Assembly (NCBI RefSeq): GCF_000012325.1
Contig: NC_003910.7
Span: 3,782,001 to 3,846,000, forward strand
DNA: 64,000 nucleotides
From: Colwellia psychrerythraea 34H
Lineage (GTDB): Bacteria > Pseudomonadota > Gammaproteobacteria > Enterobacterales > Alteromonadaceae
Direction of reading: 5' to 3'
The stretch's first letter is position 1. Every line of letters starts with the position of its first letter. The notes under the pieces are model-generated. The model did not search any database. It was not told where the DNA came from and saw only the letters and a program-made list of their open reading frames with translations. Positions 1,273-40,429 of this stretch are shown here, piece after piece. The translations under genes and the position numbers were made by a program.

Positions 1273-1320
1273 AAAGTAACTCGTCATTGGTGAGTGACTT
1301 TTCATCTTGTTGCTGTAAAG

Positions 1321-1386
1321 CCCAACTTATGCGTCAAATGTACTCATTGATACTTATCAACTCCGTACATTTTCCTTTAAATTGAA
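1321..1386 (+). repeat. Structured hairpin repeat, copy S1 (pstC-pstA gap)
   Basis: This is one of two copies in the window; the other is at 40297-40363, in the same orientation. It folds into nested stems. The outer stem pairs 1323-1329 with 1378-1384 (one mismatch). The middle stem pairs AAATGTAC (1336-1343) with GTACATTT (1365-1372) perfectly. The inner stem pairs TTGAT (1347-1351) with ATCAA (1356-1360) around the loop ACTT. The unpaired TCA and CTCC between middle and inner stems and the TTTCCTTT after the middle stem are shared with the other copy. The sequence differences from that copy mostly preserve pairing. Function is unknown. Confidence 0.75.
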
Positions 1387-1457
1387 CTCTACAGCTTAAA
1401 GCTGACTAGCCACTTATATATAAATTATTGTTTGTTTTCTAAATTCAATACGATTAA

Positions 1458-16230: not shown

Positions 16231-16260
16231 AATGTTCTTTAGGCTAAAAATAACTTTTAA

Positions 16261-16424
16261 TAATACCATTTACATTAATTTAGTGATCTAAATTCAACGA
16301 GGATAAATCTTCAAGTTCAAGGCGCGTGATTGAGCAATAGCTGGCTATTGGGATTGAGCGCAACGCAGAAATTGTAGATGTAGACCATTTGAAGATGGGC
16401 AATTAATTAGTGTAATTGGTATAA
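16261..16424 (+). mobile_element. MITE-like repeat family A, full copy (158 bp plus TAA duplications)
   Basis: The element spans 16264-16421, starting TACCATTTACATTAATT and ending with the near-complement AATTAGTGTAATTGGTA. TAA is present immediately on both sides (16261-16263 and 16422-16424), consistent with a 3-bp target duplication. It has no open reading frame. The core carries AATAGCTGGCTATT, a small palindrome. The copy at 22293-22450 is reversed and also exactly 158 bp. Confidence 0.8.
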
Positions 16425-16429
16425 AATAC

Positions 16430-16846
16430 TTATTGAGTAAAGCCAATACCTGCTTCTATTAAACTCGCATAGACACTTTTCATCGCAACGGTGTTCTCGG
16501 TAAGAGAGTCATCCCATTTGTCACGTTTCTCGAATCCTAAATCACTAATTTTAAAATAGTGATCGGTTTTTATGCCACTTTTATCTAAACAAGCTTTTGT
16601 ACAACCTAACGCACAACCATCAATGGCTATAATAGGTCGACCTGAATTAGCCATCGCCATAATAGGCTCTATTTTACCTACTACGCCAGCAACACAAGAC
16701 ATTTCAGCAATACCATCACCATCTAGAGTTAATGAAATATTATGCGCCATTTGTGCAAGGTTTGAGCACCCAGAACAAGAGTAAACTATTGGTTTACAAT
16801 TTTTTTCGTCACTGATTATTTTCGATAATTTATGTACATTCGACAT
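16430..16846 (-). CDS. DGC-domain putative zinc-binding protein
   Basis: Protein of 138 aa with cysteines spaced as in the DGC family: YSCSGCSNLAQ near residue 23, MSCVAGVVG near 50, and the name-giving IDGCALGCTKACLD near residues 75-88. These Cys pairs probably bind zinc. There is no signal peptide or membrane segment. It starts 136 bp after the end of cobQ on the same strand, so it could be read through from the cobalamin operon, but the gap and its own AGGAGTGAC-like ribosome site suggest separate expression. Its biochemical role is not known. Confidence 0.8.
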   Translation of the reverse strand: MSNVHKLSKIISDEKNCKPIVYSCSGCSNLAQMAHNISLTLDGDGIAEMSCVAGVVGKIEPIMAMANSGRPIIAIDGCALGCTKACLDKSGIKTDHYFKISDLGFEKRDKWDDSLTENTVAMKSVYASLIEAGIGFTQ

Positions 16847-39300: not shown

Positions 39301-40280
39301 GTACCGTTTGGGCACAAACGACTTACAGAATGCAGTCGCTTCGTGATAACCCAGAATGTGCACAGCAAGAGCATGATGTTAAATTTGATACTGAAGATCC
39401 AGGTTTAAACACTGAATTAACCTTTGATATCAACGAAGATATTGTTGCCGACCTTATTATTAGAGATGCTGTTAAAGATGCAGAAAACTCTGCAAACGAC
39501 ATAACTAACCCACGTGTTGCTATTTTACGTGAGCAAGGTGTTAACTCACATGTTGAAATGGCAGCCGCTTTTGATAGAGCAGGCTTTGTTGCAATCGACG
39601 TGCATATGTCTGACATTTTATCTGGCCGCGCTGATTTAGCAGACTTTAACGGTTTAGTAGCTTGTGGTGGTTTCTCATACGGTGATGTATTAGGTGCTGG
39701 TGAAGGTTGGGCAAAATCAATCTTATTTAATGCTAACGCACGCACTATGTTTAAAACATTCTTTGAGCGTGAAGATACTTTCACCTTAGGTGTTTGTAAC
39801 GGTTGTCAGATGTTGTCTAACTTAAAAGACATTATCCCAGGCTCAGAACATTGGCCTCACTTTGTACAAAACAAATCTGAGCGTTTTGAAGCACGCTTCT
39901 CATTAGTTGAAATTCAAGAGAGTCCTTCAGTGTTGTTTAAAGGCATGGAAGGTTCACGTATGCCTATCGCTGTTTCACACGGTGAAGGTCATGCCGAGTT
40001 TAGCTCTGATGCTGCTATTGATGCTGCAAACAACTCAGGTACGGTATCAATGCGTTATGTAAATAACTACGGTGACGTTACAGAAACTTACCCAGCTAAC
40101 CCGAATGGCTCTGTTGATGGTATAACCTCATTAACAACCACTGATGGTCGTGTAACTATTATGATGCCTCATCCTGAGCGTGTATTTAGAACGGTTGCTA
40201 ACTCTTGGCATCCAGATAGCTGGGGTGAAGATTCACCTTGGGTGCGCATGTTCCGTAACGCGCGTGCTTTCATTGGTTAA
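36309..40280 (+). CDS. purL: Phosphoribosylformylglycinamidine synthase PurL
   Basis: Cytoplasmic enzyme of the fourth step of purine synthesis, converting FGAR and glutamine to FGAM with ATP. It is 1323 aa, the large single-chain form. The N-terminal domain is followed by the synthase core ([56 protein letters not shown]). The C-terminal glutaminase has [19 protein letters not shown], the nucleophile in [12 protein letters not shown] (about residue 1162), and HGEGHAEF with MPHPERVFR. Codon use looks highly optimised compared with neighbours. It is divergent from mltF and followed by a structured repeat and a terminator. Confidence 0.98.
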
Positions 40281-40296
40281 TCTTTTTGCTATTAAG

Positions 40297-40363
40297 CCCA
40301 AATCATTTGTCAAAAGTACTCACTGACATTCGTCAGCTCCGTGCTTTTTCCTTTGATTTGGAC
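40297..40363 (+). repeat. Structured hairpin repeat, copy S2 (downstream of purL)
   Basis: It aligns with the copy at 1321-1386. The outer stem CCAAATCA (40298-40305) pairs with TGATTTGG (40354-40361). The middle stem AAAAGTAC (40312-40319) pairs with GTGCTTTT (40341-40348), one pair being G-T. The inner stem CTGAC (40323-40327) pairs with GTCAG (40332-40336) around the loop ATTC. The unpaired TCA and CTCC are identical to the other copy. It starts 16 bp after the purL stop and before the terminator, so it would be part of the purL 3' untranslated region. Confidence 0.75.
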
Positions 40364-40395
40364 TAACTAGCTGCAAGATAAACAATAAAATATAG

Positions 40396-40429
40396 CCGGA
40401 AATTTCTAATAAGAGATTTCCGGTTTTTT
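40396..40429 (+). terminator. Intrinsic terminator for purL
   Basis: The stem CCGGAAATTTCT / AGAGATTTCCGG (one wobble pair) has a short AATA loop region and is followed by TTTTTT. Confidence 0.88.

Follow-up and report, generated by a model that had tools for sequence, protein, structure and literature searches.

The hairpin that occurs twice in a 64,000-nt stretch of the Colwellia psychrerythraea 34H genome (contig NC_003910.7, positions 3,782,001 to 3,846,000; hereafter the window) belongs to a real and large family of structured repeats, for which the literature searched holds no description, and the surprising part of this family is its precise anchoring at stop codons. Most copies are stop-anchored and lie between co-directional genes or between a gene and a terminator. 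Here we document the presence of the family, its structure, its orientation, its phasing relative to the stop codon and its retention at the same genes, and we infer, with a probability of about one half, that it works in cis as a 3'-UTR or intercistronic hairpin clamp controlling mRNA decay.

The two copies in the window

The same hairpin is formed by both copies (1308-1402 and 40284-40378, read off the sequence), as a sequence-only reading of the window had proposed, and the compensatory base pairs listed there are correct. By inspection, the middle stem has T-A at 1339/1369 against A-T at 40315/40345, and the outer stem T-A at 1328/1379 against C-G at 40304/40355; in the inner stem, T-A at 1347/1360 and 1351/1356 is replaced by C-G at 40323/40336 and 40327/40332. 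The stem extends beyond the limits first given, to about 1290-1417 in copy 1 and about 40276-40383 in copy 2. The whole hairpins have folding z-scores of -4.6 (plus strand) and -8.7 (minus strand) for copy 1, and of -4.0 and -5.4 for copy 2, with none of 200 shuffles as stable on either strand of either copy. In both, the minus strand folds better than the plus strand, and its internal loops can be read as tandem G.A pairs; a K-turn formed by these loops was considered and is not claimed, because the bulge has only 1 nt.

Both copies match the family model R2 described below (E 1.4e-19 for copy 1 and 8.5e-21 for copy 2), values that are not independent of the model since both are members of its training set. 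A 20-nt pattern derived from the right half of the two copies, searched with up to three mismatches, matched only these two in the window, against 0.03 matches expected. The PstC neighbour of copy 1 exceeds its curated cutoff and the PstA reading frame, truncated at the window edge, scores 149.7 bits, below the cutoff of 193; the PurL neighbour of copy 2 lies far above its cutoff, and copy 2 starts 3 nt past the purL stop codon. An intrinsic terminator was rejected as an identity, no U run being seen by eye behind the hairpin in either copy. The features of the two copies, all given on the plus strand, are as follows.

1290..1417, plus: copy 1, whole hairpin in the pstC-pstA gap, antisense to the pst operon (folds, R2 match at 1308-1402, neighbours)
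1312..1329, plus: copy 1, helix 1, 5' arm, pairs with 1378-1395 (columns 5-22/71-88 of a 15-copy alignment)
1336..1343, plus: copy 1, helix 2, 5' arm, pairs with 1365-1372 (15-copy alignment)
1344..1364, plus: copy 1, core, with TCA at 1344-1346, helix 3 at 1347-1351/1356-1360, its loop, and CTCC at 1361-1364 (alignments)
1365..1372, plus: copy 1, helix 2, 3' arm (15-copy alignment)
1378..1395, plus: copy 1, helix 1, 3' arm (same columns as 1312..1329)
40276..40383, plus: copy 2, whole hairpin, sense, directly after purL (fold, R2 match at 40284-40378)
40278..40280, plus: TAA stop of purL, located where the copy 2 hairpin has its base (end of the ORF, PurL match, paired in folds)
40288..40305, plus: copy 2, helix 1, 5' arm, pairs with 40354-40371 (alignments)
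40312..40319, plus: copy 2, helix 2, 5' arm, pairs with 40341-40348 (alignments)
40323..40336, plus: copy 2, helix 3 and loop (alignments)
40396..40429, plus: separate hairpin resembling an intrinsic terminator, with a T run, in the purL 3' UTR downstream of copy 2 (sequence, fold)

A large family in Colwellia and related genomes

The element is indeed multi-copy and structured, as first read, and the family is far larger than two copies. In the C. psychrerythraea genome, searched as one contig of 5,373,180 bases, DNA similarity gave 34 matches at E<=10 and the model R1 gave 38 copies at E<0.01. R1 had between 6 and 48 matches in every one of the 39 genus genomes searched, and it matched 46 of 118 genomes and 24 of 52 genera of the taxonomic family; no match was found with R1 in the other 72 of these 118 genomes, which indicates that the element is dispensable. 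The model R2, built from 117 matches (116 distinct rows in its alignment), had matches in 79 of the 394 order genomes sampled, spread over 17 of 114 genera and eight families (f1, f6, f7, f8, f11, f16, f20 and f21); ten candidates were scored per genome in this search, so that copy numbers are lower bounds, and the E-values of the models are rough. A scan of named genomes with the core pattern gave mostly Colwellia among the matches listed.

The structure-model search of genus, order and Rfam suggested with the sequence-only reading thus returned many copies and no Rfam match: nothing in the window scored above a gathering score, and around the purL copy the best E was 2.5, far below the gathering scores. 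In an open-access literature search we found no description of the family in Colwellia, nor of any stop-codon-anchored relative of ERIC; De Gregorio 2005, Wilson and Sharp 2006 and Zo 2011, the last of which reportedly deals with ERIC across Gammaproteobacteria, may cover part of it.

Covariation and structure

Read inwards, the element starts with an outer stem of variable sequence and an internal loop. An 18-bp stem containing mismatches (helix 1) comes next, followed by the internal loop RCRTC/TTCCT and by an 8-bp stem that includes a U.G pair (helix 2); the TCA/CTCC loop, a 5-bp stem (helix 3) and a 4-nt loop complete it. TCA and CTCC are near-invariant in a set of 98 copies, which is biased as it includes loci picked for their top score or for a particular gene (guaA, purH), and the U.G pair, at the position of 1341/1367 in copy 1, is kept in 119 of 131 distinct ungapped copies. 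Among the 116 distinct rows, helix 3 is 99.3% paired, and all 18 pairs of helix 1 change on both sides somewhere.

Covariation across genome-wide copies, which the sequence-only reading had named as its test, is strong and was confirmed by shuffle tests. In 15 oriented ungapped copies, the paired share of the cells is 85.6% (69.5% when shuffled), and changes on both sides occur in 23 of 31 pairs, neither figure being reached in 500 shuffles. In the 116 distinct rows, 88.1% of the cells are paired (64.5% in shuffles) and 886 are doubly changed (272 in shuffles, 0 of 500 reaching the observed value), while 30 of 32 pairs are doubly changed, a number of pairs that 9 of 500 shuffles reach. Sliding the pairing along the R2 alignment lowers the paired cells to 33-39%. 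A further covarying pair connects the loops (model positions 26/68), with G-C in 97, A-T in 26, A.C in 4 and G.T in 4 of 131 copies. Moreover, beyond the model the two flanks of one copy pair at -11.5 kcal/mol, against -7.9 kcal/mol with the flanks of other copies (z -15), the own flanks beating the median swap in 86% of the copies of the same biased 98-copy set. The outer stem is variable in sequence, yet it tends to self-complementarity as far as the stop codon.

Pair types were counted in 131 distinct ungapped copies, which remained of 171 after 34 with insertions or gaps and 6 identical rows had been dropped. The 1,572 cells of helices 2 and 3, without the fixed U.G pair, comprise 1,489 Watson-Crick pairs, 15 G.T, 14 A.C and 54 others; helix 1 on the plus strand has 144 A.C against 29 G.T, and hence more G.U on the minus strand. 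Selection on RNA usually leaves G.U more often than A.C. Because G.T and A.C are equally rare in helices 2 and 3, the paired changes look as if they had been made together, through recombination between copies or template switching. The structured nature of the element that was read from the two window copies is backed by covariation across the family; covariation alone does not prove stepwise selection on RNA. This calls for caution with palindromic repeats, in which compensatory changes may come from paired replacement as well as from RNA selection.

Placement at stop codons

The 3' and intercistronic positions noted for the window copies are borne out across the family. The 38 copies of the C. 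psychrerythraea genome form an unbiased set, for which genes were called by ORF heuristics. Relative to the element, the gene context is ++ in 30, +- in 3 and -- in 5, the last being antisense copies with copy 1 of the window among them; the upstream gene is thus co-oriented in 33 of 38 (binomial p 2e-6), or in 31 of 38 when a co-oriented frame of at least 90 codons ending at most 60 nt away is demanded. The 95-nt core begins 0-20 nt past the stop codon in 26 of the 33 co-oriented copies, against a mean of 5.7 and a maximum of 15 in 20,000 trials with uniform placement in the same gaps. The next gene is co-directional in 30 of 33, a count given without genome-wide background.

A larger set of 187 distinct copies, biased by loci picked on best score or gene, gives a similar distribution: 163 have a co-oriented frame of at least 90 codons ending within 60 nt, and 155 start 0-20 nt beyond a stop codon (TAA in 108, TAG in 41 and TGA in 6). 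At least two nucleotides of the stop codon are paired with the 3' arm in 85 of these 155, compared with 254 of 775 controls with swapped 5' flanks. Under the assumption that replication starts at base 1 and terminates halfway, copies after genes that oppose replication still follow the gene; we do not count this observation as evidence.

Host genes and history of the sites

Thirty upstream proteins of the C. psychrerythraea copies were scanned, three of them without a match. The hosts named with NCBIfam include dnaB, dapD, cysN, glyA, guaA, guaB, purH, mreB, acnB, gspG, eno, lapB, flgI, iscA, infB, yajC, nqrF, both tuf genes, ilvE, argS, groES and a guanine deaminase gene. The element is located between guaB and guaA and, judged by a large next frame, probably also between groES and groEL. 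Elsewhere in the order, 24 of 26 loci examined lie behind a long co-oriented frame and two do not; the best matches in family f21 follow dnaK, secA, guaB, gyrB and glyA (named by eye from C-termini), and one match in f11 follows purH (also by eye). Some host genes are therefore common across species and families, namely guaB, purH and glyA, as well as dnaK and secA by eye.

The guaB and guaA ends were compared in 30 of the 39 genus genomes. The guaB end has a match in 30 of 30 loci and the guaA end in 27 of 30, three being without the element. Core-deleted remnants were seen at the guaA end of loci L164 and L167; by eye their outer arms remain able to pair, as though the small residual hairpin were retained. 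At purH, 11 of 30 loci from the taxonomic family have a match, 27 of the 30 ends being readable, and several ends without the element carry a plain terminator (by eye).

At one and the same site, different species have several unrelated arm types, self-complementary where folded or read. In L185, a guaB copy, two arm types are joined in a chimera, and whole tips are swapped among orthologues. Compared with a close relative that has 40 copies (30 compared, 10 outside the comparison), 25 of 30 sites share flanks with C. psychrerythraea copies. Among the five unshared sites, two retain the outer arms without the core in C. psychrerythraea (L225/L257 and L236/L255), one lacks the element there (L071/L253) and two are unclear; none of the five is a clean empty site. 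Between C. psychrerythraea copies behind different genes the best identity is 0.84, and between genomes such copies reach 0.95 (equal-length copies only in both cases), so that exchange between sites may have taken place. Recent transposition was rejected, near-identical copies behind different genes being absent among the equal-length copies compared in the genome, and no sign of recent movement was seen there. The picture suggested by these comparisons is one of old, mostly vertically inherited copies with loss and rewriting.

Relation to ERIC and other repeats

ERIC (IRU, RU-1), the closest relative known, is, like the hairpin family, an intergenic imperfect palindrome of about 110-130 nt present in many copies. 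Its E. coli consensus is given with a TCA - stem - loop - stem - CTC(C) core in the available part of PMC2759123, and comparison of alignment columns by eye shows the core layout and strand to be the same as in the hairpin family. The earlier statement that no described family could be recognised thus holds as far as Rfam is concerned and is incomplete as regards the core, the layout of which is that of ERIC. The hairpin family is separate from ERIC and probably shares a distant ancestry with it: the ERIC model R3 matches none of the C. psychrerythraea hairpin-family copies at E<=10, and ERIC copies coexist in this genome. BLAST of the genome with the 127-bp ERIC consensus gave no match at E<=1e-3.

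Searches with each model on the loci of the other family gave weak matches, mostly in the expected places. On 32 ERIC loci, R2 gave eight matches at E<=10 and none at the remaining loci; seven lie on the ERIC copy and on the right strand (E 0.0016 to 1.1, two being one locus in two strains), while the strongest (9.5e-5) adjoins its ERIC fragment and is not on an ERIC copy. Conversely, R3 on 41 loci gave nine matches, comprising four hairpin-family copies (E 8e-4 to 0.55), three neighbouring ERIC copies (one on the reverse strand) and two elsewhere, the copies of the other 37 loci being unmatched. On 33 C. psychrerythraea loci, R3 found one palindrome on both strands, four weaker matches and three ERIC copies, which lie beside hairpin-family copies:

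L126, 3834-3956: ERIC copy, on the strand opposite to the hairpin-family copies at guaA/guaB
L126, 5758-5883: ERIC copy, likewise on the opposite strand
L139, 5057-5181: ERIC copy

In two f21 genomes (L268 and L269, 2427-2571), an ERIC copy was seen about 0.8 kb downstream of the element copy that follows a gyrB-like gene, and it begins at the stop of a small ORF.

Stop-codon anchoring is partly shared with ERIC, since the upstream gene is co-oriented in 16 of 24 ERIC copies and 6 of these 16 begin -5 to 20 nt from the stop. Phasing is tighter in the hairpin family (27 of 33 against 6 of 16, p 0.003, a rough comparison in which ends are measured differently), and the orientation bias is not clearly above that of ERIC (33 of 38 against 16 of 24, p 0.11, from a small, mixed and rough sample). 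To our knowledge, the function of ERIC-type palindromes is largely open, in part because their placement looks haphazard. Unlike these, the hairpin family is precisely placed, being mostly sense, at the stop codon and at some of the same genes across families. The bases of the element often read TA(A/G)...TTA; a TA duplication was looked for at the five unshared sites, which offered no clean empty one.

In the accessible text of the relevant reports, ERIC at 3' gene ends in Yersinia is reported to change how stable the transcript is, through an RNase E site that becomes exposed (PMC2229807, PMC10969869), an effect for which orientation is crucial (PMC2229807), and V. cholerae ERIC is described as shorter and non-folding (PMC2267715). 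The same texts describe NEMIS/Correia, RUP, YPAL and other MITEs as transcribed palindromes, some of which affect mRNA via RNases (PMC2229807, PMC10969869). The hairpin family, also palindromic, is set apart from these elements by their descriptions, the available portions of which contain no fixed stop-codon anchoring.

REP and BIME with RAYT resemble the hairpin family in being palindromic, intergenic and 3' of genes. The REP tag is GTAG/GGAG, and the minus strand of the hairpin family has GGAG ahead of the inner hairpin, a possible likeness to that tag; the hairpin family is three times longer. A REP-type element, one of the two options of the sequence-only reading, is not supported, and a REP/RAYT origin was rejected, as the 6-kb neighbourhoods of the three Y1 transposase (Y1_Tnp) matches in the genome hold no copy at E<=0.1. 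An attC (integron) site and an IS200-like hairpin were also considered, and no box match was seen.

A proposed hairpin clamp at the stop codon and alternative explanations

According to the proposal that we favour, the hairpin would clamp the mRNA directly past the stop codon, and its base would be opened by the terminating ribosome. This opening would govern access of RNase E, RNase III or 3' exonucleases, RNase E being a candidate by analogy with what is reported for Yersinia ERIC, and would thereby set how stable the upstream cistron is compared with the one that follows. The two conserved internal loops (TCA/CTCC and RCRTC/TTCCT) probably either serve as contact points for a protein or give the helix its shape. 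The clamp is supported by co-orientation, stop phasing, pairing of flanks and stop codon, and covariation; by retention at guaB/guaA, at sites shared with the close relative and at the same genes in other families; and by the precedent of Yersinia ERIC. Against it count the five antisense copies of 38, copy 1 of the window included; the lack of a G.U excess over A.C and the better folding of the minus strand; the losses at 3 of 30 guaA ends and the 5 of 30 sites of the relative without a matched C. psychrerythraea copy; and the absence from 72 of 118 family genomes, together with an orientation bias not clearly above that of ERIC.

A rather unlikely alternative is that the element is a decayed ERIC-like MITE, once inserted at TA and preferably at stop codons, that persists neutrally and owes its pairing to template switching between arms and exchange between copies. 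It would explain the tens of copies per genome, the unrelated arm types at one site and the L185 chimera, the whole-tip swaps among orthologues, the paired changes without wobble intermediates and the 0.95 identity behind different genes of different genomes, and it agrees with the relation to ERIC, which the available excerpts of reviews place among the MITEs, with TA at its ends and a duplicated TA target (PMC2759123). It is harder to reconcile with a best identity of 0.84 within the genome, with five unshared sites of which none is clean and empty and two keep their outer arms without the core, with orientation and phasing far from random, and with the retention of the element at some genes across families.

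It is improbable that the hairpin acts as DNA, for instance as a cruciform that is situated where transcribed genes end and is recognised by a recombinase or a DNA-binding protein. The Watson-Crick covariation of helices 2 and 3, in which G.T is as rare as A.C, is the same for both strands, as such a site would have it; a pure DNA reading is disfavoured by an orientation bias that tracks the upstream gene, which is difficult to explain for a site in duplex DNA, and also by the conserved U.G pair and by three Y1 transposase genes without a nearby copy. We give just as little credence to a transcription element that blocks Rho loading or terminates past the stop codon: the site directly behind the stop codon and the mostly co-directional next genes (30 of 33, without genome-wide background) would suit it, whereas a U tract is missing behind the hairpin in the window copies, the purL copy has a terminator-like hairpin of its own downstream, and simple masking needs no conserved core.

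Extending the clamp reading, it is conceivable, if on the whole doubtful, that an ancient class of stop-codon clamps spans the order, with ERIC and the hairpin family as two of its branches. The base of such a clamp would hold the stop codon and be opened by the ribosome, coupling termination to mRNA processing at recurring housekeeping genes (dnaK, secA, guaB, purH, glyA), with arms that may be freely rewritten as long as they stay paired. The family offers a many-copy natural system for direct tests of translation-coupled mRNA decay.

Neighbouring repeats and insertions

On the minus strand of the window, a stretch of about 170 nt at 16250-16420 has the inverted ends ATACCAATTACACTAATTAATT and CTAAATTAATGTAAATGGTAT and lies about 20 nt past the stop of the ORF 16430-16846. 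It contains a weak R2 match (E 0.021), shuffled sequences fold as well as its inner part does (z -0.14), and it is possibly another repeat family. Two C. psychrerythraea loci, L021 and L148, have an element copy interrupted by a short hairpin of the same kind, TACCAATT...ATTGGTAT. In L015, L022 and L151 of the same genome, after flgI, an element copy contains an insert of another type, a hairpin of about 70 nt around CACATCCGAAGGATG.
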